Assembly: GCF_000425645.1 (NCBI RefSeq)
Contig: NZ_AUDV01000006.1
Location: forward strand, 372,001 to 436,000
DNA length: 64,000 bases
Direction of reading: 5' to 3'
Source of the DNA: Gaetbulibacter saemankumensis DSM 17032
GTDB taxonomy: Bacteria > Bacteroidota > Bacteroidia > Flavobacteriales > Flavobacteriaceae
Positions 39,563 through 55,312 of the stretch are shown one piece after another. Made by a program: the position numbers and the translations under genes. Every line of letters starts with the position of its first letter. Position 1 is the stretch's first letter. Below the pieces are notes generated by a model that was not told the DNA's origin, searched no databases, and was given only the letters and a program-made list of their open reading frames with translations.

Positions 39563-41530
39563 TTAATCTACATTATCGTGTAAAAACGAGTTATTACTTC
39601 TTAATTGAATATCATCATTATCGTCAAGACCAATACTGGTTCTAGACATATCGGTTTCTGAAGAGTGCTTTGCTGCATCTAAATTCACGCCCTGACGTTT
39701 ATAAGCTGGTACTTTTTCTATATCGTCAATTTTTGCATTATTGAACTTATAATTAAAGTCTTTCATCTTACGACGTCGTTCTTCTGCACGTTCCTTTAGC
39801 ATTGCTGAAATAGGACTGTTCATAGGATCAACTTCCTCCTCGGTTGTTTCCGTTACTGCTTCCTTTATTACTTTCTTTTCGAAAACCACATCTTCTTCCT
39901 CAACCCTTTCCTGCTTAGAGTTATTGGTCTTTTTTGATTCCGATTCGTAATAATCTTCTAAAGCATATCGAACATCTCCTTTTTCGTTAGATTCTGTTAC
40001 AGGAATAAGCTCTACGTAATCGTTAACAGCAATATCCTTTACATTTTCATCTAAACTAAAAGTAACTCGCTCCTTACGATTTTCTGGAGTTTCATTCTTT
40101 TCTTCCTTAGGAGAAAGCGGCATGTCGAATGTTAAAGTGAATTGCTGTTCATCCTCAACTTCAGTTTCTTCAATGTCCGACATTCTTGTAACAGGTTTAA
40201 TTACAAAATCTTCTTCTTCCTGAAAATGAGCTTTCACCTCTTCGTATTCTACTTCAATATTTTTAATAGTATTTGAAGTTGGAACAAACCCTGTATCAGC
40301 CTTTGGTTTTATCTCTTGCTTATTCTCTACAGGTTTCACTTCTTTACGTTCGAAAACCACATCTTCATGATCATCGATATCTAAATCTAAAGTATGACGA
40401 ACTATTTTTGGTTCCTTTTTTTCTTTCTTTAATTCAATTACCGGCTTAATAATTACAGGCTCTGTTTCCTTTTTAATCATTTCTACCTCTTCACTAAGCG
40501 AATGCACCACTTTTTTTGTTTCGGTATTTGAAATTTCGTCTTGTTGCTCAATATTGAAACCCGTAGCAATAATGGTTACAGCAATAGATTCTTCTAAGGA
40601 TTCATCTTCACCGACACCCATGATAATATTAGCACCATGACCGGCTTCGTTTTGAATATGATCGTTGATTTCACCAATTTCATCAATAGTAATTTCTTGA
40701 ACCCCTGAAACTATAAGCAGCAATACATTTTTAGCTCCAGTAATTTTATTATCATTTAACAACGGCGAATCTAAAGCCTTGGTAATGGCTTCCTGTGCTC
40801 TGTTTTGACCTGATGCTAATGCCGACCCCATAATAGCTGTTCCACTATTACTCAATACCGTTTTAGCATCACGTAAATCGATGTTTTGAGTGTAATGGTG
40901 TGTAATAACTTCGGCTATACCACGAGCAGCTGTGGATAACACTTCGTCGGCCTTAGAGAACCCGGCTTTAAAGCCCAGATTACCATAAACCTCACGTAGT
41001 TTGTTATTATTAATCACGATTAATGAATCGACTACATCTCTTAGTTTTTCAATCCCTTTTTGAGCTTGTTCAAGACGCATTTTACCCTCGAACTGAAAAG
41101 GCATCGTAACAATACCAACCGTTAAAATATCTAAATCTCGAGCCATTCTTGCAATAATAGGCGCAGCACCTGTACCGGTTCCTCCTCCCATTCCTGCTGT
41201 AATGAACACCATTTTAGTATTGGTATCTAACATCGTTGAGATATCTTCAAAACTTTCTACAGCAGATTGCTCACCTACGGCTGGGTTAGCTCCTGCCCCT
41301 AATCCTTCTGTTAGGTTAATTCCTAACTGAATTTTATTAGGCACACCGCTGTTTTGAAGTGCTTGGGCATCGGTATTACAGATATAAAAATCGACACCAT
41401 TAATTCCTTGTTGGAACATGTGATTGATAGCATTGCTACCGCCACCGCCAACACCAATAACTTTAATTACATTCGATTTGTTTTTTGGTAAATCAAATGC
41501 GATGCTTTCGAATTCTTTTTTGCTGCTCAT
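39563..41530 (-). CDS. ftsZ: Cell division GTPase FtsZ with very long acidic tail
   Basis: This 655-residue tubulin homologue polymerises into the division ring. The GTPase core covers about residues 15-330, with VIGVGGGGSNAINHM (25-39), the tubulin signature GGGTGTGAAP (115-124) and the synergy loop VQEITIDEIGEIND (277-290). Escherichia coli FtsZ has 383 residues; the excess here is a tail of about 325 residues rich in Glu, Lys, Asp and Val. A peptide EKVPAYKRQ (about 605-613) looks like the conserved binding site for FtsA, unusually followed by 42 further residues. It is the last gene of the cluster. Confidence 0.97.
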   Translation of the reverse strand: MSSKKEFESIAFDLPKNKSNVIKVIGVGGGGSNAINHMFQQGINGVDFYICNTDAQALQNSGVPNKIQLGINLTEGLGAGANPAVGEQSAVESFEDISTMLDTNTKMVFITAGMGGGTGTGAAPIIARMARDLDILTVGIVTMPFQFEGKMRLEQAQKGIEKLRDVVDSLIVINNNKLREVYGNLGFKAGFSKADEVLSTAARGIAEVITHHYTQNIDLRDAKTVLSNSGTAIMGSALASGQNRAQEAITKALDSPLLNDNKITGAKNVLLLIVSGVQEITIDEIGEINDHIQNEAGHGANIIMGVGEDESLEESIAVTIIATGFNIEQQDEISNTETKKVVHSLSEEVEMIKKETEPVIIKPVIELKKEKKEPKIVRHTLDLDIDDHEDVVFERKEVKPVENKQEIKPKADTGFVPTSNTIKNIEVEYEEVKAHFQEEEDFVIKPVTRMSDIEETEVEDEQQFTLTFDMPLSPKEEKNETPENRKERVTFSLDENVKDIAVNDYVELIPVTESNEKGDVRYALEDYYESESKKTNNSKQERVEEEDVVFEKKVIKEAVTETTEEEVDPMNSPISAMLKERAEERRRKMKDFNYKFNNAKIDDIEKVPAYKRQGVNLDAAKHSSETDMSRTSIGLDDNDDIQLRSNNSFLHDNVD

Positions 41531-41592
41531 AAATTCTGTTTTACTGGTATTCTACTTTTATTTTACTTTTATATTTCGTTAAATGATAATCA

Positions 41593-42912
41593 CTATTCTG
41601 CGTTATCTAAAAAATCTTTTACGCGTTCCGTTAACTTATCTAAAAATGAACGTCGTTCTTTAGGTCTTTCTGGTTCTGGTTCTTCTACAGGTGTGTCCTG
41701 ATCGTTTGTTATTTCAGGTTCGGCTTCTTCCTGCAATTCTACTTTTTTACGTTCCTGACGCTTTAAACCGTCAAGTACCAAACCTACAGCGGTTGCATAT
41801 AAAGGACTGGTAATATCTTCATCACTATCACCTGCCAAATGCTCATTAGGGTAACCAATTCTGGTATCCATTCCAGTGATATACTCTACTAATTGCTTTA
41901 AATGTTTTAGCTGACTTCCGCCTCCTGTTAAAACAATGCCTGCGATTAATTTTTTCTTTTGTTCTTCGTGTCCGTAGTTTTTAATTTCAACGTACACCTG
42001 TTCGATAATTTCAACAACACGTGCATGAATTATCTTCGATAAATTCTTAAGCGTTATCTCTTTTGGCTCACGTCCTCTTAATCCAGGAATAGAAACAATT
42101 TCGTTGTCTTTATTCTCTCCCGGCCAAGCTGATCCGAACTTGATTTTTAATAATTCGGCTTGCTTTTCAATAATTGAACAACCTTCCTTTATATCTTCAC
42201 TAATAACATTGCCTCCAAAAGGAATTACCGCTGTATGACGAATGATACCGTCTCTAAATATGGCTAAGTCAGTTGTTCCACCACCTATATCGATTAATGC
42301 AACACCTGCTTCCTTTTCTTCCTGACTTAACACAGCATTTGCCGATGCTAAAGGCTCTAATGTGATGCCCTCTAATTCAAGACCTGCACTTTTTACACAA
42401 CGACCAATATTTCGAATGGATGACACCTGACCAACAACTACATGGAAATTAGCTTCTAAACGCCCTCCATACATCCCAATAGGTTCTTTAATTTCTGCTT
42501 GCCCATCTACCTTATATTCCTGAGGCAACACATGAATAATTTCTTCTCCTGGAAGCATCACCAGTTTATGTACCTGATTAATTAAGCGATCGATATCATC
42601 TTCGTCTATAACCGTTTCTGAATTTGATCTTGTAATATAATCGCTGTGTTGCAAACTACGAATATGCTGACCTGCTATTCCAACGGTAACGCCGTCGATT
42701 TTCATATCGGCAGCGGCCTCTGCTTCTTGTACGGCCTGTTGAATAGATTGAATAGTTTGTGTTATATTATTAACAACACCACGGTGAACGCCCAAACTTT
42801 TAGATTTGCCAATTCCTAAAATTTCAACTTTACCGTACTCGTTCTTTCGGCCAATCATGGCCACGATTTTTGTGGTTCCTATATCTAATCCTACTGCTAT
42901 ATTATGCTCCAT
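41593..42912 (-). CDS. ftsA: Cell division protein FtsA
   Basis: This 439-residue actin-like ATPase tethers FtsZ filaments to the membrane. Seen are the phosphate-1 motif VGLDIGTTKIVAMIG (7-21), the SHS2/1C region, the phosphate-2 motif LIDIGGGTTDLAIF (about 206-219), IVLTGGGSQL and the C-terminal amphipathic helix FLDKLTERVKDFLDNAE that serves as membrane anchor. An acidic linker rich in Glu and Pro (about 385-420) comes before the helix. ftsQ ends 3 bases upstream. Confidence 0.96.
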   Translation of the reverse strand: MEHNIAVGLDIGTTKIVAMIGRKNEYGKVEILGIGKSKSLGVHRGVVNNITQTIQSIQQAVQEAEAAADMKIDGVTVGIAGQHIRSLQHSDYITRSNSETVIDEDDIDRLINQVHKLVMLPGEEIIHVLPQEYKVDGQAEIKEPIGMYGGRLEANFHVVVGQVSSIRNIGRCVKSAGLELEGITLEPLASANAVLSQEEKEAGVALIDIGGGTTDLAIFRDGIIRHTAVIPFGGNVISEDIKEGCSIIEKQAELLKIKFGSAWPGENKDNEIVSIPGLRGREPKEITLKNLSKIIHARVVEIIEQVYVEIKNYGHEEQKKKLIAGIVLTGGGSQLKHLKQLVEYITGMDTRIGYPNEHLAGDSDEDITSPLYATAVGLVLDGLKRQERKKVELQEEAEPEITNDQDTPVEEPEPERPKERRSFLDKLTERVKDFLDNAE

Positions 42913-42915
42913 CGC

Positions 42916-43635
42916 TTATATTTTGGTACATACTACTTGGTTGTCAAACTGTAAATTGACTTTACTATATTTATCAAGCGTTTTATCTTTTAAATTCTTC
43001 TGATAAAAAGCTTTTAAATTATTCACCTTTTTATTTAATAAAGAAACATCTCCTAACTGCACTAAAAATTGGCACTGCCTAAGTTTTAAATACAACACGT
43101 CATCACGACTTTGGTGTATTTCGATAACGTGCTTTTTTAAGAAGTCGTCATCTCTAACTTTTTTAGCAACAGTATAGATGTTCTTTAACTTATTTTTTTC
43201 TACATAACCGGTAACCAAGGGTACTCTGGCCGAATAATTTGAAGATAACGGCATATAATAACCGTCGGCATCAATGTAATAAGACGCATTGGTACTTACT
43301 CTTGCAATTGGTGTTTTCTGTTCAATTTCTGCATTTAGTGTCCCATCCACAGTAAGATACACCTCAGCAGATTTTATTAATGGATTAGAATTCAGGGCAG
43401 TCTCTAACTTATTCAAATCTAAAGTTTCTTTAGCTACATTTTTAGAGGCTTTAAAATTTTGTATTAACAATTTACTAACAGCCTCATTAGTAATAAATAA
43501 ATTGTTTTCACCTACAAATTCAATTTTAGGTTCTGGCAACAACCTAGCCGAATTTCTTTTTGATGCAAAGGCATACAAAAACACTACCACAAGTGTTAGA
43601 ACAATCATCTTTATGTAATGCCAGTTAATTCGCAA
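42916..43635 (-). CDS. ftsQ: Cell division protein FtsQ/DivIB-like
   Basis: This 239-residue bitopic protein has a short cytoplasmic part, one transmembrane helix (MIVLTLVVVFLYAFA, about 10-24) and a periplasmic part. The start of the latter (PKIEFVGENNLFITNEAVSK) is a POTRA-type domain, followed by the FtsQ beta domain (KTPIARVSTNASYYIDADGY). It links the FtsL/FtsB and FtsI parts of the divisome. Its first 11 bases overlap the end of murC, so translation is coupled. Sequence conservation is low in this family; position supports the call. Confidence 0.9.
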   Translation of the reverse strand: MRINWHYIKMIVLTLVVVFLYAFASKRNSARLLPEPKIEFVGENNLFITNEAVSKLLIQNFKASKNVAKETLDLNKLETALNSNPLIKSAEVYLTVDGTLNAEIEQKTPIARVSTNASYYIDADGYYMPLSSNYSARVPLVTGYVEKNKLKNIYTVAKKVRDDDFLKKHVIEIHQSRDDVLYLKLRQCQFLVQLGDVSLLNKKVNNLKAFYQKNLKDKTLDKYSKVNLQFDNQVVCTKI

Positions 43636-44977
43636 GACTAAATTCCTTTTTTATATGTTTTACTTCTTCACCTATGTCTCCCGCTCCAATAGTAAGAATC
43701 ACTTCTGCACTACTTTTACGCAATTCTATTAACAGGTTAGACTTATTAACTAGGCGTTTATGTTCATTATTAATTTTTTCAAGTAGCCACTGAGATGTCA
43801 CCCCTTCAATAGGCAATTCTCTGGCCGGATAAATATCTAAGAGAAGTAACTCATCGAATTGAGCCAAACTATTAGCAAACTCATCTGCAAAATCTCGAGT
43901 TCTACTATAAAGATGCGGCTGAAAAACAGCCAATACCTTCTTATCCGGATACATTTCCCTAACGGCCTGATGTACGGCATTAATTTCTTCTGGGTGATGT
44001 GCATAGTCATCTATAAATACCAACTCATTGGTTTTTATATGATAGGTAAAACGACGCTTAACCCCTTTATAAGACGCTAAAGCATTGGCGAGCTGCTGGT
44101 GAGGGCAACCATACTCTACAGCCATCGCCAAGGCTAATAATGCGTTCGACAAATTATGTCTACCAGGTAGGTTAAAGTGAATATTTTTAAGAACAGCTTT
44201 CGGCGTTTGCACATCGAAAACATACGTTCCGTTTTCTATTTTTATATTTTGAATGGTATAATCTGAATCATCTTCTATACCATAAGTTATACCTGAAAGA
44301 GGCAACCCATTCTTTACAAACAGCTTACCTTTAGGTTTGATTTTTTTTGTAAAGTCTTCAAATGATTTTATTAACTCCGAAGCTTCACCATAAATATCTA
44401 AATGATCGGCATCCATCGAGGTAACACCTGCTAAATTTGGTGATAACGTTAAAAACGATCTATCGAACTCATCAGCTTCCACTACCGAAACTTCCGTACC
44501 ATTTATAATTAAATTAGAATCGTAATTTTCACTAATACCACCTAAAAATGCCGTTACCGGAACATTACAAACCTTCAATAAATGTCCCAGAATACTTGTT
44601 GTAGTTGTCTTACCGTGGGTACCAGCTACAGCTAAACAAAAGGTGTTTTCTGTGATTAAACCTAAAAGTTGCGAACGTTTTAACACTTGATACCCTTCCG
44701 ATTTAAAATAGTCTAATTCGGCATGCCCCTTAGGAACGGCGGGCGTGTAAACAATCAAAGTTGTTTCCTTATTAAAAAAGGAATCATCAATATTGTTTAT
44801 AGCATCCTCAAAATGAATCTTAACACCTAAAGCATTTAAAGCCTTCGTAATATCGGAAGGTGTTTTATCATAGCCACCAACACATTTCCCTTTGGCTACA
44901 AAATATCTTGCCAAAGCACTCATGCCTATTCCGCCGATGCCAATAAAATAGATGTTATGTATTTTATCTAATTTCAT
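43625..44977 (-). CDS. murC: UDP-N-acetylmuramate--L-alanine ligase MurC
   Basis: This 450-residue cytoplasmic ligase adds the first L-alanine to UDP-MurNAc using ATP. It has the nucleotide-sugar-binding N-terminus (IYFIGIGGIGMSALARYF, 9-26), the ATP loop VAGTHGKTTTTSIL (about 116-129), the Mur central motif with DADHLDIYG and the C-terminal FQPHLYSRT. Length is standard. The gene starts 2 bases after murG. Confidence 0.97.
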   Translation of the reverse strand: MKLDKIHNIYFIGIGGIGMSALARYFVAKGKCVGGYDKTPSDITKALNALGVKIHFEDAINNIDDSFFNKETTLIVYTPAVPKGHAELDYFKSEGYQVLKRSQLLGLITENTFCLAVAGTHGKTTTTSILGHLLKVCNVPVTAFLGGISENYDSNLIINGTEVSVVEADEFDRSFLTLSPNLAGVTSMDADHLDIYGEASELIKSFEDFTKKIKPKGKLFVKNGLPLSGITYGIEDDSDYTIQNIKIENGTYVFDVQTPKAVLKNIHFNLPGRHNLSNALLALAMAVEYGCPHQQLANALASYKGVKRRFTYHIKTNELVFIDDYAHHPEEINAVHQAVREMYPDKKVLAVFQPHLYSRTRDFADEFANSLAQFDELLLLDIYPARELPIEGVTSQWLLEKINNEHKRLVNKSNLLIELRKSSAEVILTIGAGDIGEEVKHIKKEFSLAN

Positions 44978-44979
44978 TT

Positions 44980-46086
44980 TTATGCTTTTAGAAGTTTTTC
45001 AACCTCATCTGCTATATCCTTTGTAGCATTAACCAATGCCATTTTTTTTATGTTTGTTCCTAATTCCTTTTGCCTTTCAGGTGAAGCTATAAGACTAGAA
45101 AATTTATTCTCAAAATCTACATCCAATTCATCTTCTCTAATAATTAAAGCTGCATCCTTATTTACAACCGCCATCGCATTTTTTGTCTGATGATCTTCAG
45201 CCACATTTGGCGATGGAATAAAAATTACTGGTTTTCCTACAATACATAATTCCGAAACCGAGCTGGCTCCAGCACGAGAAATGACAATATCTGCCGCTGC
45301 ATAAGCCAAATCCATATTGTTTAAAAACTCACAAACCTGAACATTCTTGATATTATTATAAATTTTATATTGTTGATAATACAACTTTCCACACTGCCAA
45401 ATAACTTGAACATTCTGTGTGTCTAAGAAATCTAATTCTTTCTCTATAAGTTCGTTTATACGCCTTGCCCCTAAACTCCCACCTAAAACCAGAAGAGTAT
45501 ATTTTCCATGTTTTAGATTGAAAAAATTCTTAGCTGCAACAGTTTTATCTTCAATATCCAATAATCCTTTGCGAACCGGATTTCCAGTTTTTATAATTTT
45601 ATCTTTAGGAAAAAATCGGTCCAAATCATCATAAGCCACACAAATCTTTTGTGTTTTTTTAGCCAATAATTTATTGGTAATTCCTGGGTACGAATTCTGC
45701 TCCTGAATTAAACTAGGTATGCCATTAATTTCGGCCATATATAACAATGGGCCACTAGCAAAACCACCTGTACCAATAACCACATCTGGTTTAAACGACT
45801 TAATAATTTTGCGAGCATTCCATAAACTACTTAAGAGTTTAAATGGAAACATGAGATTTTTCAGAGTTAATTGGCGTTGCACCCCGGAAATCCACAGTCC
45901 TTTAATTTCATAACCGGCCTGCGGTACTTTTTCCATCTCCATTCTATCTTTAGCCCCAACAAACAAAATTTCGGCATCTGGAAAACGAGATTGCATTTCA
46001 TTAGCTATAGCAATAGCTGGGTAGATATGACCACCTGTTCCTCCGCCAGATAAGATAATTTTATATGCTCCGTTTTTCTTACTCAC
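44980..46086 (-). CDS. murG: Lipid II synthase MurG
   Basis: This 368-residue GT28 glycosyltransferase transfers GlcNAc from UDP-GlcNAc onto lipid I at the inner face of the membrane. Motifs are [18 protein letters not shown] (11-28), [33 protein letters not shown] and [13 protein letters not shown] (near 275) with [13 protein letters not shown]. Length and all G loops are normal. Confidence 0.97.
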
Positions 46087-46107
46087 CAGTTCTCTTATAT
46101 AATATCT

Positions 46108-47304
46108 TTAAATAGTTTCCGATAGAATTTCTAAAGGACTCTCTTCTTCTGTTTCTTCCTGTTCTTTAAGTTCTTCTCGTTTTGCGCTTACACTTAAAAT
46201 AATTCCAACTGCCATGCAAGTCATCCAAATAGATGTCCCCCCACTACTTATTAATGGCAAAGTTTGCCCTGTAACCGGAAATAATTCAACTGCAACCGCC
46301 ATATTTATCAATGCCTGAAATACAATTGGCAAGCCAACACCAAGCACTAACAGTTTACCAAATACTGTATCTGATTTTTGTGACACTATTACTATTCTGA
46401 ATAACAACCACATATACAAAATCATAATAAACAAGCCACCTATCAACCCATATTCTTCAATAATGATGGCAAAAATAAAATCGGAGGATGATTGTGGCAA
46501 GAAATTTTTCTGAATACTTTTCCCTGGCCCCACGCCTTGAATACCACCCGTTGCAATAGCAATTTTAGCTTTTTCAATTTGATAATCTGCCGCAGTATCT
46601 TCTGGGTTCGCGAAATTTTCAACTCTACTTATCCAAGTATCTACACGATTTGGCATAGCATCTGGAAATGCTTTAGCCACTAAAACAAACATACCCAACA
46701 TCAACACTCCGGAACCCACTATCAAAACCAAGTATCGTATAGGATACCCTCCTAAAAACACTAACATCAATACCATTAAGAACATAATGGCTGTTGTTGA
46801 AAAGTTTGCCGGTAATATTAAAACTAATACTAAAAACACTGGTAGCCACAAGGGCAGTATTGAATCTTTAAAGGTGATGACTTCATCCTTTATTTTTGAC
46901 ATATAGCGAGACACATAGACCATAAGAACCACATATGCGAACGTAGATGTCTGAAAAGACATCCCCACTATTGGAATTTGAATCCAACGACTGGCATTCG
47001 CTCCATCAATTGTTGTCCCCTGCAACATAGTTATTACTAGCAACACCAACACCACCGGCATCATAAATAATGACAGACCTTTAAAATAACGGTACGGTAT
47101 TTTATGTACGCCATACATAATTGCAAAACCTAAAAACAAATGCATAAAGTGCTTGATAAAGAAACCAAAAGTATTAGCACTCCCCCCTTTATAAGCTAGA
47201 TTACTAGAAGCGCTATACACAGGCAGAAACGACAAAATTGCCAACAAAGCCGCAATTGCCCATATTAAACGATCTCCTTTTATGTTTTTAAATAATGCTT
47301 GCAT
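46108..47304 (-). CDS. ftsW: Lipid II polymerase FtsW (SEDS family)
   Basis: This 398-residue membrane protein has about ten transmembrane segments and SEDS signatures such as GSGVLM, KAKIAIATGGIQGVGPGKSI (near 247-266), SSSDFIFAIIIEEYGLIGG and LISSGGTSIWMTCMAVGI at the end. It polymerises lipid II glycans at the septum together with the PBP encoded upstream. An acidic cytoplasmic tail (ELKEQEETEEESPLEIL) follows the last segment. Confidence 0.96.
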   Translation of the reverse strand: MQALFKNIKGDRLIWAIAALLAILSFLPVYSASSNLAYKGGSANTFGFFIKHFMHLFLGFAIMYGVHKIPYRYFKGLSLFMMPVVLVLLVITMLQGTTIDGANASRWIQIPIVGMSFQTSTFAYVVLMVYVSRYMSKIKDEVITFKDSILPLWLPVFLVLVLILPANFSTTAIMFLMVLMLVFLGGYPIRYLVLIVGSGVLMLGMFVLVAKAFPDAMPNRVDTWISRVENFANPEDTAADYQIEKAKIAIATGGIQGVGPGKSIQKNFLPQSSSDFIFAIIIEEYGLIGGLFIMILYMWLLFRIVIVSQKSDTVFGKLLVLGVGLPIVFQALINMAVAVELFPVTGQTLPLISSGGTSIWMTCMAVGIILSVSAKREELKEQEETEEESPLEILSETI

Positions 47305-47309
47305 TCAAT

Positions 47310-48641
47310 TTATAAATTTCTTACTGCCTCTTTAAATTGACGGCCGCGATCTTCATAGTTTTCAAACAAATCGAAACTCGCACAAGCTGGTGACAATAAA
47401 ACATTATCTCCACTCTCCGCTAATTTGTAAGCCATCTTTACAGCCTCACTCATAGACTGAGTTTCACTAATCACATCTACCATGCCTCCAAAAGCATCTA
47501 ACAGCTTTTCATTATCAACACCCAAACAAATGATAGCTTTTACTTTTTCATTTACAAAAGCATAAAGCTCCTCATAATTATTTCCTTTATCGACTCCTCC
47601 AACAATCCAAATTGTAGGCGCATCCATACTTTCTAAAGCGTAATAAGTCGCATTGACATTGGTTGCTTTTGAATCATTGATATACTGTACTTTATTAATT
47701 TTAAGAACCTGCTCTAAACGATGTTCTACGGCTTGAAAATTTTCCAAACTCTCACGAATAGTCTGCTTTCTAATTTTTAACAAATGTGACACTGTAGAAG
47801 CCGCCATAGCATTTTTAATATTATGTTTACCTTCTAATGCAAGATTTTTTGTTGGCATAATTATCTCATTATTGGTTATTGATACTATCATATTTTCATT
47901 TTTTAAATAAGCTCCATTTTCAAATGTTTTATCAAGTGAAAATGGTAACAAAGTAGACTGAACCGGATGTTCCTTCAACCAACCTGTTAACACCTCATCG
48001 TCTGCATCATATATTAAATAATCATCTTTAGTTTGATTCATCGCTATCCGAAATTTAGAAGCGATATAATTTTCAAACTTATAGTCATACCTATCCAAAT
48101 GATCTGGGCTAATATTTGTGATGACAGCTATATGCGGTTTAAAATCTACAATATCATCCAACTGAAAACTACTTATCTCCAGCACATAATTTTCATAACC
48201 ATGCTCTAACACCTGTTTTGCAAAACTATCGCCAATATTGCCTGCCAACCCAACATTTAACACCTCCTTTAATATATGATGCGTTAAGGTTGCCGTAGTT
48301 GTCTTACCATTACTTCCTGTGATTCCTACAATTACTGCATCTGTATATTTTGACGCGAATTCAATTTCGGAAACCACTGGAATATTAGCTGCAATTAATT
48401 TACTTACCAAACTAACATTTCCTGGTATACCCGGGCTTTTCATGACGATATCAGCATTTAAAATCTTTGATTCGGTATGCCTTTCATCTTCCCATTCAAT
48501 CTCATTATTTACAAGAACTTGTTTATATTTTTCGTTAATTCTCCCCTTATCTGACACAAAAACCTCGAAGCCTTTTGCTTTTGCTAACAATGCTGTACCC
48601 ACACCACTTTCTCCTCCACCAAGCACTACCAATCGTTTCAC
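47310..48641 (-). CDS. murD: UDP-N-acetylmuramoyl-L-alanine--D-glutamate ligase MurD
   Basis: This 443-residue ligase adds D-glutamate to UDP-MurNAc-L-Ala. It has the N-terminal LGGGESGVGTALLAKAKG (6-23), the ATP loop GITGSNGKTTTATL (about 109-122), the central NISPDHLDRYD and the C-terminal YINDSKATNVNAT and LLSPACASFDLFENYEDRG, all characteristic of MurD. It follows mraY with no gap. Confidence 0.97.
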   Translation of the reverse strand: MKRLVVLGGGESGVGTALLAKAKGFEVFVSDKGRINEKYKQVLVNNEIEWEDERHTESKILNADIVMKSPGIPGNVSLVSKLIAANIPVVSEIEFASKYTDAVIVGITGSNGKTTTATLTHHILKEVLNVGLAGNIGDSFAKQVLEHGYENYVLEISSFQLDDIVDFKPHIAVITNISPDHLDRYDYKFENYIASKFRIAMNQTKDDYLIYDADDEVLTGWLKEHPVQSTLLPFSLDKTFENGAYLKNENMIVSITNNEIIMPTKNLALEGKHNIKNAMAASTVSHLLKIRKQTIRESLENFQAVEHRLEQVLKINKVQYINDSKATNVNATYYALESMDAPTIWIVGGVDKGNNYEELYAFVNEKVKAIICLGVDNEKLLDAFGGMVDVISETQSMSEAVKMAYKLAESGDNVLLSPACASFDLFENYEDRGRQFKEAVRNL

Positions 48642-49883
48642 TTATCTAATCTTTAAGGTTACTATAGAAACAATCGCTAACAATATGCCCACAATCCAAA
48701 ATCGAGTTACAATTTTACTTTCATGATATCCTATTTTTTGATAATGATGATGTAAAGGCGACATCTTAAAAATGCGACGACCTTCACCATATTTCTTTTT
48801 GGTATACTTAAACCAACTTACCTGCATAACTACCGATAAATTTTCTGCTAAAAAGATGCCACACAATACTGGAATCAACCATTCCTTTCTAACAGCAATG
48901 GCTATTACCGCAATAATTCCACCAATGGTCAAACTTCCTGTATCACCCATAAACACTTGAGCCGGAAACGTATTATACCATAAAAACCCTATCAATGCGC
49001 CAACAAAAGCTGCTATGTAAATAGTAATTTCTTCAACTCTAGGGATATACATTATGTTTAAGTATTCCGAAAATATAATATTACCAGACACCCAGGCGAA
49101 AATACCCAAAGTAAGCACAATGATAGCAGAGGTTCCTGCCGCTAATCCATCTATTCCATCTGTAAGGTTAGCTCCATTTGAAACCGCTGTAATTATAAAT
49201 ATGGTTACAACTATAAATATTATCCATGCATATTTTTCCAATTTCGGGCTAATCCACGTAATCAAATCGGCATAATCAAACTCATTCCCTTTCATGAATG
49301 GGATAGTCGTTTTAGTAGACTTCGCCTCTTCACTAAAAAATTTAGTTGGAGATACATTCGGATTCTCAGCAAGTAATACTTGTTGTTCTTCAATTGGTAA
49401 TTTTTCTTTTATAGTAACTTCCTGATGAAAATAAAGCGTAGCACCTACAATAAGCCCTAACCCAATCTGACCCAAAATTTTAAAACGTCCTTTTAAACCT
49501 TCCTTGTCCTGTTTAAATTTCTTAATATAATCATCTATAAAACCTATAATCCCCATCCAAATTGTGGTAATTACTAATAGGATGATATAGATATTATCTA
49601 GTTTCGCTAATAAAAAAACTGGTATTAAAGTTGCAAGAATGATAATAATTCCACCCATAGTTGGTGTTCCTGCCTTTTCGCTTTGTCCTTGAAGCCCTAA
49701 ATCACGAACTGTTTCACCTACTTGTTGTTTTTGTAAAAAACGAATAATGCGCTTTCCGTAAATAGTAGATATTAACAATGAGAATATCATAGCCAATGCC
49801 GCCCTAAAGGTTAAAAACCCAAAAAGGGACGCCCCAGGCAACTGGAATTGTGTTTCTAAATATTCAAATAGGTAATACAGCAT
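48642..49883 (-). CDS. mraY: Phospho-N-acetylmuramoyl-pentapeptide transferase MraY
   Basis: This 413-residue membrane enzyme transfers the UDP-MurNAc-pentapeptide moiety to undecaprenyl phosphate, making lipid I. Motifs are GTPTMGGI (72-79), FIDDYIKK (115-122), the [16 protein letters not shown] region (about 241-256), [11 protein letters not shown] and [14 protein letters not shown] near the end. It is about 50 residues longer than the Escherichia coli enzyme because of a soluble stretch between two membrane segments (about 152-218, [20 protein letters not shown]...). From memory this insertion is common in Bacteroidota. Confidence 0.97.
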
Positions 49884-49904
49884 GTTTTATCTCTACTATT
49901 TAAG

Positions 49905-51368
49905 TTACTTCTGTAACTCTGTTAAAATTTGGTTTACTAATTTAAAATCATCAAAATCAAAACGCTTGCCATTAATCTCTTGATAAGTTTCATGACCTTT
50001 ACCCGCAATTAAAATAATGTCGTTTGGCTGTGCCAATTGACAAGCCGTTTTAATAGCTTGAGCGCGATCTTGAATCGTTAAGGTCTTTTTATAATTTTGA
50101 GGCTCTACCCCTTTTTCAATCTCTTCTAAAATAGTTTCAGGTGCTTCACTTCTAGGATTATCATTTGTAAAAATAACTTTAGTACTTAACTGTGAAGCTA
50201 TATGTCCCATTTTAGGTCGCTTTGTCTTATCACGATCACCTCCACAACCAACAACAGTAATTAACTCTTCGTTTTTAGTTCGAATATTATTAATGGTTTC
50301 TAAAACATTTTTTAAGGCATCCGGTGTATGCGCATAATCAACAATAGCCGTAATATTACTTCCAGACACCATATATTGAAAACGTCCACTTACACTTTCT
50401 AAGTCGCTAATTAAACGTAGCACCTCAACTTTTTCTAACCCCAGCAATTCGGCCGTTGCATAAATTGCTAATACATTATAGGCATTAAAACTCCCTATTA
50501 GCTTAGTCCAAACCTCGGATTCATCAACCTTTAACAACAAGCCTCCAAATTGATTTTCTAAAATCTGAGCTTTGTAATCTGCATAGCCCTTTAATGCGTA
50601 GGTCACTTTTTTGGCCCCAGTATTTTGCAACATTACCAAACCATTTTTATCATCCACATTTACCAAAGCAAAGGCCGATTTCGGCAACCTATCGAAAAAG
50701 CTTTTCTTAACATCTCTATACTCCGGAAAGGTATTATGGTAATCCAGATGATCGTGAGAAAGATTAGTAAATACACCTCCCGCAAAAGTTAAACCTTCTG
50801 TACGTTTTTGATGAATACCATGAGAGCTTACCTCCATAAAACAATACTCAACACCAGCCACATTCATTTCTGCCAAATACTTATTTATGGTCAGTGAATC
50901 TGGTGTGGTATGAGTTGCTTTATATTCAACCTCATCGACTAAAATTTTAACGGTTGACAACAGTCCTACTTTGTAACCAGCATTTTTAAAGAGCTGATAC
51001 AGCAAGCTAGAAACCGTAGTTTTTCCATTAGTACCTGTTACTCCAACCAACTTTAAATTTTCAGAAGGCGTATCATAATAATTTGAAGCCATTAATGCTA
51101 AGGCCTTATTAGTATCAGCAACCTGAACATAGGTAACACCTTCTTTTAAATCGACTGGTAAATCTTCACAAATAATTGCTATAGCTCCTTTTTCTATTGC
51201 CTTTCCTATGTATTCATGCCCATTAGCCGCACTTCCTTTTATAGCGACAAAAACATCTTGCTCTGCAACTTTTCTAGAGTCGAAATGTATTGCATTAATA
51301 CCCACAGTCGTACTACCAACAACGGCATCAATGGAAACTTTATACAATATGTCTTTTAATACAATCAT
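49905..51368 (-). CDS. murE: UDP-MurNAc-L-Ala-D-Glu--diaminopimelate ligase MurE
   Basis: This 487-residue ligase adds the third peptide residue of the cell wall stem. It has the Mur ATP loop VGVTGTNGKTTVSSLL (about 107-122), the central SHDHLDYHN and the specificity motif DNPRSE (near 395), whose Arg marks enzymes using meso-diaminopimelate rather than lysine. The ATG overlaps the stop of the PBP gene (ATGA), so the two are translationally coupled. Confidence 0.97.
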   Translation of the reverse strand: MIVLKDILYKVSIDAVVGSTTVGINAIHFDSRKVAEQDVFVAIKGSAANGHEYIGKAIEKGAIAIICEDLPVDLKEGVTYVQVADTNKALALMASNYYDTPSENLKLVGVTGTNGKTTVSSLLYQLFKNAGYKVGLLSTVKILVDEVEYKATHTTPDSLTINKYLAEMNVAGVEYCFMEVSSHGIHQKRTEGLTFAGGVFTNLSHDHLDYHNTFPEYRDVKKSFFDRLPKSAFALVNVDDKNGLVMLQNTGAKKVTYALKGYADYKAQILENQFGGLLLKVDESEVWTKLIGSFNAYNVLAIYATAELLGLEKVEVLRLISDLESVSGRFQYMVSGSNITAIVDYAHTPDALKNVLETINNIRTKNEELITVVGCGGDRDKTKRPKMGHIASQLSTKVIFTNDNPRSEAPETILEEIEKGVEPQNYKKTLTIQDRAQAIKTACQLAQPNDIILIAGKGHETYQEINGKRFDFDDFKLVNQILTELQK

Positions 51369-53371
51369 GAAGCTTTTAATACAACTATCTGGTTATTTTT
51401 TAATTTCTGATTATGATTTACTGACTGATTCTTCACCACACCACTTCCTTCTAACTTGACGCGAATATCTACCTGCATATTTTCCAGTAATGCTAAAGCA
51501 TCCATAACAGGTAATCCAACTACATTAGGCATGATAGTTTTATAAGTCTGCGCTGTTTTATAATAATTCTCAAATTCAGATTCCACTGAAGCAACTTTAA
51601 CATCTAAAGCCTCCACCTCATCTACAATTGGAGTATCAGTATGTATTTTCTGAGCAATTCTTTTAAATACCGGCCCTGTAACATCAGCCCCATAATACCC
51701 TTTTTTCACACTTGGCTTATGAATAACCACAATACAAGAATATTTAGGGTTATCGGCTGGAAAATACCCTGCAAAAGATGAGATATAGCGTTTATTATCT
51801 TTCCAATCTTTCATCCAGTATTCCGTTTGAGCTGTACCTGTTTTACCCGCCATTGAAAAATAAGGTGAATATAATGAACGTCCTGTTCCACGCTCAACCA
51901 CATGCTTCAAAATATCTTGTATTTCCTTCAAGGTCTTTTCTGAACATATTTTTTCATCACTGGCAACCTTATCAAAAGATTCCACCACTTTCCCCAACTC
52001 CTTTACTTCTTTTATAAATCTTGGTTTTACTATTACCCCATTATTCGCAATCGCATTATAAAACGTTAACGTTTGTAATGGTGTTAATTTTAAATTGTAT
52101 CCATAAGCCAAAGACGGCAGGGCATTTTTACTCCATATCTTATCTCCCGGCTGCGGAATTACAGGCTCTCCCTCTCCTAATATTGGCAGTCCTAAAGGTT
52201 TATCTAGACCCCAGTCCTGAAGATGAGCTATAAACTTTCTAGGATTTTTAGCATATCCCTGATCAACAATAGTAGCCAATCCTATATTAGAAGACACTTC
52301 TAAAGTTCTGGCTGCAGAAATTTTACCATGTCCGTGAGTATCATAAATCCCTCTACCATAAAATTGTTTATATCCTAATTTAGTATCAATTACAGTAGAT
52401 GTATCAACCACTTTATCTTCTAAAGCAGCCATTAAAGCCATGACTTTAAATGTTGAACCAGGCTCGATGGCTTCACCTACAGCATAATTCAAACGTTCAT
52501 AATAATGTCCATTATCGTTTCTACCCAAGTTCGAAATTGCCCTAACCTCTCCGGTTTTAGCTTCCATCACCACCACACAACCGTGATCTGCTTCATACTC
52601 TTCAAGTTGTTTCAATAAAGCATGATGTGCAATATCCTGAATATTCACATCTATAGTTGTATAAACATCGTACCCATCTTTAGGTTCTATTTCATTTGCA
52701 TCACTTAAAGGTTTCCATTGACCTTTTCCTATTTTTTGCTTTCTACGATGCCCATCCGAACCACGTAAATATTTAACACCAAAGGCTCCGTCGATACCCG
52801 CTCGTGTTACATTACCATCTTCATCAAAACGTTCATATCCAATAGAACGTTGCGCGATACCTCCCATTGGATGTTCGCGCTTTGTTTTTTGCTCTACAAT
52901 TAAACCGCCTTTAAAAGCCCCTAGATTTAACAAAGGAAAATTCCTTAATCGCATATACCCAGAATAACCAATATTACGAGCCAACAGGTAATATCGGTTT
53001 TTATTAGCTCGCGCCCGACGTAATTCTTTTTGATAATATTTTGAAGACTTTCCTGTATAACTTGCTAAAGAATCACTTAACGGAATTAAATATTTCTCGA
53101 ACCGCGCCGACGTTGGTGTGATGGCATCAAAACGAATATCGTATTTAGGAACAGAAGTTGCCAGCAAATTTCCGTTTACTGAATACACATTACCTCTATT
53201 AGCCGGAATTACCACATCTTTAATTACGCGCTCGTTAGCCAAGGCACGGTATTTATCTCCTTGTAAGAACTGAATACTAAACAGCTTAAACAACACAGCC
53301 ATCCCGAAGACGAACATACATCCTGCTATAAAATACAATCGGTTTAATATGTCTTTCTCTTTAACTGCCAA
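51365..53371 (-). CDS. ftsI: Septal penicillin-binding protein FtsI (class B PBP with PASTA domain)
   Basis: This 668-residue transpeptidase has a short cytoplasmic part, one transmembrane helix (about 12-32), a PBP dimerisation domain with RGNVYSVNGNLLATS (59-73) and the transpeptidase domain. Active-site motifs are STFK (Ser306 to Lys309), SSN in VSSNIGLA and KTGT in AGKTGTAQTE. It ends with one PASTA domain (MPNVVGLPVMDALALLENMQ...). It crosslinks septal peptidoglycan together with FtsW. Confidence 0.96.
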   Translation of the reverse strand: MAVKEKDILNRLYFIAGCMFVFGMAVLFKLFSIQFLQGDKYRALANERVIKDVVIPANRGNVYSVNGNLLATSVPKYDIRFDAITPTSARFEKYLIPLSDSLASYTGKSSKYYQKELRRARANKNRYYLLARNIGYSGYMRLRNFPLLNLGAFKGGLIVEQKTKREHPMGGIAQRSIGYERFDEDGNVTRAGIDGAFGVKYLRGSDGHRRKQKIGKGQWKPLSDANEIEPKDGYDVYTTIDVNIQDIAHHALLKQLEEYEADHGCVVVMEAKTGEVRAISNLGRNDNGHYYERLNYAVGEAIEPGSTFKVMALMAALEDKVVDTSTVIDTKLGYKQFYGRGIYDTHGHGKISAARTLEVSSNIGLATIVDQGYAKNPRKFIAHLQDWGLDKPLGLPILGEGEPVIPQPGDKIWSKNALPSLAYGYNLKLTPLQTLTFYNAIANNGVIVKPRFIKEVKELGKVVESFDKVASDEKICSEKTLKEIQDILKHVVERGTGRSLYSPYFSMAGKTGTAQTEYWMKDWKDNKRYISSFAGYFPADNPKYSCIVVIHKPSVKKGYYGADVTGPVFKRIAQKIHTDTPIVDEVEALDVKVASVESEFENYYKTAQTYKTIMPNVVGLPVMDALALLENMQVDIRVKLEGSGVVKNQSVNHNQKLKNNQIVVLKAS

Positions 53372-53381
53372 AGTTCAGAAA

Positions 53382-53699
53382 CTAGTTTTGGGATTTAATT
53401 TTTATTTTTTTTGGAGGAATTACGGAAGGTGCAATTCCTTTTTCCTTCATATTATTAACGATTACCGATTCCATTTTCATTTTCATGAGCTTGGATCGAC
53501 CATCTATAAAAGCAGATCGCATTTCACTTACTTCATTTTTCAAACGCGCAATCTCGTATACCTTTTTATCTGCACTATGAGAACTCGCAATCATCACTAC
53601 AGCCAGCAAAGAAACATAAATGATAAATCTCCAGTTTTTAAAGGAGTCATCACTTACTAAAAAAGTACCTTTTAATATTTTATAAATTTTTGTTTTCAT
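53382..53699 (-). CDS. ftsL: FtsL-like cell division protein
   Basis: This 105-residue bitopic protein has a cytoplasmic N-terminus, one transmembrane helix (FIIYVSLLAVVMIASS, about 25-40) and a short coiled coil (YEIARLKNEVSEMRSAFIDG). It sits exactly where ftsL lies, between rsmH and ftsI, starting one base before the rsmH stop codon ends. Sequence identity in this family is too low for more than structural and positional support. The C-terminus is basic (PPKKIKIKSQN). Confidence 0.87.
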   Translation of the reverse strand: MKTKIYKILKGTFLVSDDSFKNWRFIIYVSLLAVVMIASSHSADKKVYEIARLKNEVSEMRSAFIDGRSKLMKMKMESVIVNNMKEKGIAPSVIPPKKIKIKSQN

Positions 53700-54596
53700 T
53701 TATAATTTTTCCGCCACTCTTAATTTAGCACTACGCGCCCGGCTATTAATTTTTATTTCTTCTTTTGTTGGCACAATTAATCCGTTTACCTTTTTAAATG
53801 GCACTTCAAAATTTCCATACATATCGCGCTCCGGTTCCCCTTCAAATAAACCATTTCTAATAAAACGCTTCACTAAACGATCTTCGAGAGAATGATAAGA
53901 AATCAAACTTAATCGCCCCCCTTTACTCAACAACTCAGGCGTCTGCATTAAAAACTCCTTTAACACTTCTATCTCCTGATTAACCTCTATTCGAATGGCC
54001 TGATAAATTTGTGCTAGTATTTTATTTTCATGTCTTGGCGACAAGAACTTTTTTAACACTGTTTTTAGTTCCTCGCTAGTCACAATTGGTTTATCTTCAC
54101 GACTCTCAATAATGAGCCTAGCCATTGCTGGAGCCGCACGTAATTCTCCATACTGCGCAAACACTTGCCGCAACTGCTCTTCATCATATTCATTAACCAC
54201 ATGGTAAGCCGATAATTGATTTTGTTGATTCATTCGCATATCTAAATCAGCTTCAAAACGGGTTGAAAATCCACGCTCGGCCACATCGAACTGATGTGAC
54301 GACACACCAAAATCACCAAGAATACCATCAACCACTTTTACGCCATGAAATCTTAAAAATCGCTTTATATATCTAAAATTCTCATGAATCAAAGTAAAAC
54401 GCTCATCATCTATAGCATTTTTTAAAGCATCCTGATCTTGATCGAATGAATACAATTTACCTTTCTCATTTAAACGACTTAAAATCTCACGACTATGTCC
54501 ACCTCCGCCAAAAGTGACATCCACATAAACACCATCAGGATTAATATTTAATCCATCAACTGTTTCTTTTAATAATACCGGATTATGATATTCCAT
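53700..54596 (-). CDS. rsmH: 16S rRNA (cytosine(1402)-N(4))-methyltransferase RsmH
   Basis: This 298-residue SAM-dependent enzyme methylates N4 of C1402 in the decoding centre. Motifs are YHNPVLLKETVDGL (3-16), VDVTFGGGGHSREIL (24-38, SAM loop), GDFGVSSHQFD and LISYHSLEDRLVKRF near 240. Its first 14 bases overlap the end of mraZ. It was formerly called MraW and keeps its usual second place in the cluster. Confidence 0.96.
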   Translation of the reverse strand: MEYHNPVLLKETVDGLNINPDGVYVDVTFGGGGHSREILSRLNEKGKLYSFDQDQDALKNAIDDERFTLIHENFRYIKRFLRFHGVKVVDGILGDFGVSSHQFDVAERGFSTRFEADLDMRMNQQNQLSAYHVVNEYDEEQLRQVFAQYGELRAAPAMARLIIESREDKPIVTSEELKTVLKKFLSPRHENKILAQIYQAIRIEVNQEIEVLKEFLMQTPELLSKGGRLSLISYHSLEDRLVKRFIRNGLFEGEPERDMYGNFEVPFKKVNGLIVPTKEEIKINSRARSAKLRVAEKL

Positions 54597-55053
54597 ACTC
54601 TTCGTCGTCTTGTCCCATTACTTCTTCAGCTAATTCAGCAAAATCATCGGCTGCATCATCAATAGCCTTTTCATACAAATCTTTATCCCAAATCTCAATG
54701 ATATTAATAGCCGAAGCCACCACAATATCTTTGGATATATTAGCAAACACCGTTAAATCTTTTGGAATTAGCAATCTGCCATTCGCATCAACCTCCACAA
54801 GCTTCACTCCTGCTGTAAACCGACGGATAAAATCGTTGTTCTTTTTCTTAAATCGATTTAGTTTATTCATTTTTCCCATAAGCACTTGCCACTCAGCCAT
54901 AGGATACAATTCTAAACACTTTTGAAAAACCGAACGACGCAACACAAACCCGTCCTGCAGGACTGGAGAAAGCTGTTTTTTCAGCATAGCAGGCATCATT
55001 AGCCGACCTTTAGCATCAACTTTACAATCATATGTACCTGTTAATAAGTCCAA
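54583..55053 (-). CDS. mraZ: Transcriptional regulator MraZ
   Basis: This 156-residue protein has two AbrB-like swapped-hairpin halves, each with the family motif: GTYDCKVDAKGRLMMPAMLK (6-25) and VKLVEVDANGRLLIPKDL (about 83-100). MraZ forms rings and represses the dcw operon that it heads. Three direct GTGGT repeats lie 52-76 bases upstream of the start and are a probable binding site for it. The C-terminus is acidic and slightly longer than in Escherichia coli MraZ (152 residues). Confidence 0.95.
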   Translation of the reverse strand: MDLLTGTYDCKVDAKGRLMMPAMLKKQLSPVLQDGFVLRRSVFQKCLELYPMAEWQVLMGKMNKLNRFKKKNNDFIRRFTAGVKLVEVDANGRLLIPKDLTVFANISKDIVVASAINIIEIWDKDLYEKAIDDAADDFAELAEEVMGQDDEEYGIS

Positions 55054-55085
55054 TGCAGATTTTTAGTGGTTAATTGTTTGTTTTT

Positions 55086-55093
55086 CAAATATA
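55086..55093 (-). promoter_or_regulatory. -7 promoter box of the dcw cluster
   Basis: TATATTTG on the minus strand, 33 bases before the mraZ ATG. The MraZ-type repeats begin 12 bases upstream of it, where a -33 element would be expected. Confidence 0.55.
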
Positions 55094-55104
55094 TTGAAAA
55101 TTTT

Positions 55105-55129
55105 ACCACATTTTACCACTTTATACCAC
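55105..55129 (-). promoter_or_regulatory. Probable MraZ operator: three GTGGT repeats with 10-bp spacing
   Basis: On the minus strand GTGGT occurs at 55125-55129, 55115-55119 and 55105-55109, each start exactly 10 bases apart, with the wider pattern AAAGTGGTAT, AAAGTGGTAA, AATGTGGTAA. Escherichia coli MraZ binds TGGGN repeats with 5-base spacers; mollicute MraZ binds AAAGTG(T/G) with 3-base spacers. The repeats here fit the second pattern nearly exactly and the first in spacing. Confidence 0.75.
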
Positions 55130-55312
55130 TTTGTTGATAAATTTTCGATAAAACAACAAAAGTTCAATACTTTAAATCACCAAAACACGCGCTCTGCTTA
55201 GTATCAACACATTACAGACAACTATTTAACAACACCAAAATTATTAACATCTATAATTACAAGTTTTATGCTTGTGAATTAATTAAAATAGTTATAATAT
55301 GCACGAAATAAC

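Follow-up and report, generated by a model that had tools for sequence, protein, structure and literature searches.

A candidate MraZ operator at mraZ in Bacteroidota and a putative DnaA box adjoining it in Flavobacteriales

The three GTGGT repeats found upstream of mraZ in Gaetbulibacter saemankumensis DSM 17032 very probably represent, with a probability that we estimate at about 0.87, an autorepressing MraZ operator placed over the −33 region, from which the promoter of the division cluster would be shut. A MraZ operator is very probable because the array is specific for the 10-bp step, is conserved, and is absent from the mraZ-less genomes evaluated; as such, the MraZ operator is an already known kind of site. 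What is new here is a second conserved element, TTATNAACA, which adjoins the array in 77/80 named Flavobacteriaceae loci and in 41/53 loci of other relatives, touches the first unit and had been overlooked in the initial annotation of this region. Among the titles and abstract openings listed by searches of open-licence literature, none dealt with MraZ boxes in Bacteroidota or, within that phylum, with a DnaA box at mraZ.

The GTGGT array and the mraZ promoter

The window, that is, the whole stretch of 64,000 nt that was analysed, contains the following features, the minus strand being that of mraZ:

55132..55140, minus strand: TTATCAACA, a putative DnaA-type box, sharing one base with operator unit 1
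55123..55132, minus strand: candidate MraZ operator unit 1, AAAGTGGTAT, core GTGGT at 55125-55129
55113..55122, minus strand: candidate MraZ operator unit 2, AAAGTGGTAA, core at 55115-55119
55103..55112, minus strand: candidate MraZ operator unit 3, AATGTGGTAA, core at 55105-55109, at the expected −33 place
55086..55093, minus strand: −7-like promoter element TATATTTG, which fits TAnnTTTG
55066..55070, plus strand: one inverted GTGGT copy within the 5' leader, unconserved and probably due to chance
54583..55053, minus strand: mraZ, 156 aa, TTG start, PF02381 in two stretches
53700..54596, minus strand: rsmH/mraW, second gene of the cluster
53382..53699, minus strand: ftsL-like gene (FtsL_2, PF19579)
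39563..53371, minus strand: remaining co-oriented cluster, with a transpeptidase PBP and Mur ligases, through ftsZ

The array proved exact as originally claimed, with three GTGGT at exact 10-base steps on the mraZ strand (55105-55129, minus), read at 55129-55125, 55119-55115 and 55109-55105, and with exact 10-bp units. Three GTGGT at 10-bp steps matched nowhere else in the window and in none of 100 dinucleotide shuffles, and the array at mraZ was also the only exact three-unit GTGG array in the whole genome. A second three-unit MraZ site in this genome was ruled out, the remaining matches being three one-mismatch arrays that all fall within open frames of at least 350 codons. Two-unit GTGGT pairs were not over-represented in the same genome when compared with a reversed control pattern (5 matches, two of them the mraZ array itself, versus 7), and the other three pairs lie inside open frames. 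The inverted GTGGT of the leader was also rejected as a further operator unit, since ACCAC follows the −7 box in only 2/80 named loci.

Flavobacterial promoters follow a consensus made up of a TAnnTTTG −7 box and a −33 TTG, and we take TATATTTG at 55093-55086 to be the −7-like box of this promoter. The initial annotation had put 12 bases between the array and this box; the box is indeed there, but the gap measures 11 nt. Its proposal that the array replaces the −33 region was borne out, since no TTG occurs at the usual −33 distance and unit 3 stands there instead. Among the named loci, a TAnnTTTG element is found no more than 40 nt from the array in 80/80 and at 11 nt from the last core in 76/80.

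The mraZ product matched PF02381 in two stretches with 91.2 bits against a cut-off of 23. Proteins of the MraZ family contain two repeats, each with a DxxxR motif, and both motifs are present in the MraZ of the window, as DAKGR and DANGR; the structures matching it by sequence were 1n0e/1n0f/1n0g, 9qlr, 9qlg/9r4j and 9sx6/9sz7. Downstream, the block at 39563..53371 also holds mraY-, ftsW- and murG-like genes and ftsA, together with a 239-aa gene whose FtsQ-type match was sub-threshold. Gene order and Pfam matches thus agree with the earlier placement of the array upstream of mraZ and of the whole co-oriented division cluster. In 68/80 named loci, TTG (at 55051-55053 in the window) was the sole start codon available at a distance of 6-20 codons from the DxKGR motif that follows it, and MraZ might be kept low by a weak start conserved in this way.

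Occurrence of the array with and without mraZ

Conservation was assessed in 190 Bacteroidota loci, comprising a named set of 80 (Flavobacteriaceae or adjoining MAGs, the best 80 of at least 570 relatives), 53 relatives (53 of 56 matching genomes, our own included and G052, G053 and G054 left out) and a phylum sample of 57 loci hand-picked among the matches listed, a list that favours top scores. GTGG at 10-bp steps was found upstream of mraZ with at least two units in 171/190 loci and with three in 133/190, or in 170/189 and 132/189, respectively, after removal of a duplicate (L013 and L071 stem from a single genome). At least two units occurred in 80/80 named loci, 51/53 relatives and 40/57 loci of the phylum sample, and three units in 79/80, 40/53 and 14/57; three GTGK cores at 10-bp steps were present in 80/80 named loci. 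Steps of 6-15 bp other than 10 gave two units in at most 6/190 loci and three units in none. On the antisense strand, three units were seen in 0/190 loci and two at the 10-bp step in 7/190 (0 named, 1 among the relatives, 6 in the phylum sample). Shuffling each locus 20 times never produced three units, and produced two in 0/1600 named, 3/1060 relatives and 5/1140 phylum-sample shuffles. Around the conserved array block, the flanks have diverged.

The alignment of regions upstream of mraZ across Bacteroidota, which the initial annotation had proposed, therefore recovered the 10-bp repeat in most loci, and absence from close relatives, which it had named as the refuting result, was not seen in any of the 80 named loci. 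Outside Flavobacteriales the arrays are often shorter: a single GTGG only was found in 17/57 loci of the phylum sample, a number that falls to 5/57 when GTGT is also allowed. Two loci of the relatives, L025 and L132, scored a single GTGG, the former with ATGG at the middle position and the latter with GTGT on both sides. In one family of the same class and another order (f18; L142, L143, L145-L148, L150, L151 and L160), the array reads about GTGGGAAAAAGTGTTATTTTGTG and apparently lies over the −7-like element and not over the −33 region.

A PF02381 match was present in 280/296 genomes of the phylum survey. Twenty genomes without a MraZ match (4 relatives and 16 from the survey) were searched for rsmH, which was found in 17/20, with a start that could be placed in 16 (all but L384). 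In the rsmH promoters of these 16 mraZ-less genomes, at least two GTGG units occurred in 0/16, and there was never more than one, the cases not being independent since a single family (f38) accounts for 9/16. Array and mraZ hence go together, the former being present with the gene and gone at rsmH without it; the whole rsmH promoter region differs in the mraZ-less genomes, beyond the loss of the array. These data extend the MraZ operator, at the strength given above, across Bacteroidota, and absence of the array where mraZ is absent provides a simple genetic test of it.

The MraZ boxes of E. coli, reportedly described by Eraso et al. in 2014 as TGGGN-N5 repeats, are presumably those contained in the GTGGGAAATTGTGGGGCAAAGTGGGAA that we read upstream of mraZ in E. 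coli K-12, where three GTGG cores stand at exactly 10 bp. Both systems thus share three GTGG cores, a 10-bp step and a location ahead of mraZ and the dcw cluster, whereas E. coli differs in its fifth base, which is G in 3/3 units versus T in 93% of named Flavobacteriaceae units, and in having no TTATNAACA adjoining the array in the stretch read. The mollicute MraZ site, (AAAGTGKN3)3 (PMC5282649; also PMC8475190), resembles the array in its period, its GTGK core and its A-rich lead, and the passages that describe that site do not mention a DnaA-type box. The initial annotation had fitted all three units to the mollicute AAAGTG(T/G)-N3; units 1 and 2 do fit letter for letter, but unit 3 begins with AAT, and the mollicute sequence, compared here by its published consensus alone, leaves the fifth base open.

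The further claim that recognition is closer to that of Mollicutes than to that of Proteobacteria was not supported, since core and step are identical in E. coli and Bacteroidota themselves differ in the fifth base. Where a locus had two or more GTGK units, this base was T in the stated 93% of units in named Flavobacteriaceae (80/80 loci), in 73% in the same-order set (56/57 loci) and in 52% in other orders of the class (17/19 loci), and other classes of the phylum had G there in 87% of their units (31/34 loci). A mollicute-like specificity was accordingly discarded as a lineage signal, the base being mostly T in Flavobacteriaceae and mostly G in other classes. The fifth core base drifts within one phylum, and the difference from E. 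coli therefore amounts to one drifting position and not to mollicute-like recognition.

Identity of the element adjoining the array

In the loci that carry it at the array, TTATNAACA lies 30-32 nt before the last core, at −31 in 66/80 named loci and at −32 in 11/80; only L094, L101 and L102 of the named set are without it. The 77 named copies read TTATC in 41, TTATT in 35 and TTATA in one. Four more relatives (L025, L130, L133 and L138) have the element directly before a GTGG, their loci being anchored on another unit. In the phylum sample the carriers were 4/57, one from the same order (L141), one from the same class (L153) and two from the same family (L196 and L197), and at the array the element appears to be essentially a feature of Flavobacteriales. 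Its distance from the array varies by one base and the box is kept in L134 and L141, where unit 1 is degenerate, which suggests a separate protein. The classical DnaA box is TTATNCACA, with C at position 6. The mraZ box departs from this consensus, with A at that position in 77/80 named loci, and was therefore filed as DnaA-type and not as classical.

An origin of replication beside dnaA was rejected, since GC skew points near rpiB instead. In the complete genome G014, with dnaA at about 1 kb, the skew turns from negative to positive near 0.89-0.91 Mb, and the largest gap between open frames at 880-914 kb, of 715 bp, is that between rpiB and rnr, two genes confirmed by Pfam in our own genome. 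The switch of G021 falls at rpiB (1.19 Mb, with dnaA at 3.29 Mb) and a weak one in G049 at 0.61-0.74 Mb, ahead of rpiB at 0.79 Mb; the skew, sampled coarsely, shows further sign changes in all three genomes. Because of these switches at or near it, the rpiB-rnr intergenic region (L364 in our own genome; also L354 and L362) is the probable oriC, far from dnaA.

Motifs were counted in the 12/30 rpiB loci with a recognisable divergent rnr start (8,598 bp in total, without the remaining 18 loci), ranking 9-mers with N at position 5 that were seen at least 8 times. The top-ranked 9-mer was TTATNAACA, with 31 copies versus 2.82 expected and a shuffle maximum of 7, and its position 5 took all four letters (A6 G6 T11 C8), like the N of the classical box; TTATNCACA itself occurred 5 times versus 0.5-0.7 expected. 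Being the motif most enriched at the probable origin, TTATNAACA is most likely, as far as sequence can indicate, the DnaA box of this lineage. In Elizabethkingia, oriC was located at 0.74 Mb, with dnaA at 2.6 Mb, by means of TTATCCACA with at most one mismatch (PMC8994065), and the TTATCAACA of the window is one mismatch away from that box.

The base-contacting positions of E. coli DnaA are 399, 423, 432-435 and 438-439 (PMC5043019). In the 29/30 relatives that fit our DnaA pattern, which itself requires R399 and H434 (E. coli numbering), the residue corresponding to P423 was replaced in 29/29, by A in 27, and that corresponding to T435 was A in 27/29. The relation of these changes to the changed base 6 of the box is a correlation only.

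The element recurs at other genes. Upstream of dnaB (200 nt, 29/30 loci) there were 29 TTATNAACA in 20 loci versus 1.1 expected. In the accA-dnaB intergenic region of many Flavobacteriaceae, including our own genome (L199), such boxes precede dnaB, often as two about 20 bp apart. A search of 37 genomes for same-strand TTATYMACA pairs spaced by at most 30 bp yielded, in 25/37 of them, a pair of TTATYAACA between fmt and the HU gene (hup), with a step of 20 bp in 22 and of 21 bp in 3; since the motif itself served to find the hup pairs, this is a count and not an enrichment test. The two copies are separated by variable sequence (L200 in our own genome; parts of L296-L322 and L402-L415), and the contig of G008 stops before HU can be read. 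Our own fmt, HU, accA and dnaB genes were confirmed by Pfam, those of other genomes being named by eye. When 29 pair loci were opened, 12 were at HU, 5 at dnaB, 2 beside rpiB and 10 at other places; 20 more gave 12 at HU and 8 elsewhere.

A competing reading, to which we concede an appreciable though lesser chance, is that TTATNAACA is the site of another global regulator or a UP-like promoter element, and not of DnaA. The A at position 6, where TTATNCACA has C, speaks for it. So does the distribution of copies in our own genome, with TTATYAACAA only mildly over-represented (111 versus 78 for the reversed pattern) and with 24 of the first 30 copies listed, all of them on one contig, in open frames of at least 120 codons. 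Upstream of dnaA, TTATNAACA stood at chance (28/30 loci, L265-L294; 2 versus 1.0), and the classical TTATNCACA above it (28 loci; 4 versus a shuffle mean of 0.2 and maximum of 2). The arrangement as one box at mraZ and a 20-bp pair at hup is also at variance with the preference of E. coli DnaA for box pairs 2-3 bp apart (PMC11317965). A DnaA box is nevertheless better supported by the first rank of TTATNAACA in the skew-defined candidate origin with every letter at position 5, by the enrichment of TTATNCACA at that same origin, as if both forms served one protein, and by the divergence of DnaA contact positions 423 and 435 in nearly all 29 matched relatives.

We regard as improbable that the GTGG array and TTATNAACA make up one extended MraZ site, in which TTATNAACA would be a further MraZ unit. 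Such a site would account for the adjoining of both in most Flavobacteriales loci and for the lack of both at rsmH in the four mraZ-less Flavobacteriales (G023, G047, G048 and G051), where the TTATNAACA box is missing as well, yet TTATCAACAA, in 10-bp register, is unlike AGTGGTAAAA, the motif recurs at rpiB-rnr, dnaB and hup, and neither the one-base variation in the distance between array and box nor the persistence of the box beside a degenerate unit 1 in L134 and L141 agrees with it. That the triple repeat is a functionless chance or mutational direct repeat, for which nothing was found beyond the A+T-rich setting, is ruled out for practical purposes by conservation across the phylum in most of the 190 loci, by strand and step specificity and by its absence where mraZ is absent.

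Proposed control of the division cluster

In E. coli and M. genitalium, MraZ is reported to repress its own cluster (PMC8475190), and we infer that MraZ binds and represses here too, with autorepression extrapolated from the E. coli and Mycoplasma work. In M. gallisepticum, overexpression of MraZ was accompanied by more FtsZ (PMC8475190), so the sign of MraZ control need not be uniform. A MraZ oligomer would contact one GTGG core per helical turn over three successive turns, on the same face of the DNA. As the array lies at the −33 contact of RNA polymerase, bound MraZ should block the promoter, and by blocking it MraZ would limit its own synthesis and the division cluster behind.

If DnaA binds the adjoining box, it would do so about 40-50 bp before the predicted transcription start and would touch unit 1, and could therefore displace MraZ or else assist it; competition or co-operation of the two proteins at the mraZ promoter is probable. 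We give roughly even odds to a composite switch in Flavobacteriales, in which a DnaA box TTATNAACA overlapping MraZ unit 1 would time the division genes, the same form of box would control dnaB and, as a 20-bp pair, the HU gene, and position 6 of the box would have shifted alongside DnaA residues 423 and 435.

DnaA-controlled promoters include those of Caulobacter ftsZ, gcrA and dnaB, and in B. subtilis the ftsL promoter region is bound (PMC8203912). The likeness lies in DnaA-type boxes that precede genes for division and replication, among them dnaB, whereas here a single putative box is joined to a candidate MraZ operator, carries A and not C at position 6 and belongs to the Flavobacteriales lineage. 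During replication arrest in B. subtilis, RsmH and PbpB of the ftsL operon stayed at wild-type level, and FtsL was undetected (PMC11019786). Should the element next to the array prove to be a DnaA box, the mraZ promoter would physically connect the initiation of replication with the division cluster in a conserved manner, and an element present at the dcw operator in 77/80 loci offers a precise place for testing a replication-division link.

Some loci carry additional copies of these elements. In L032, L033, L035, L039 and L043, an extra GTGG lies about 21 bp before unit 1, beyond the TTATNAACA box, and in L033 box and unit appear duplicated. In G014, three tandem TTATYAACA at 12-bp steps occur inside an open frame (L416; G014:C1:3873311-3873343), and their separation by 3 bp is close to the pair spacing preferred by E. 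coli DnaA.
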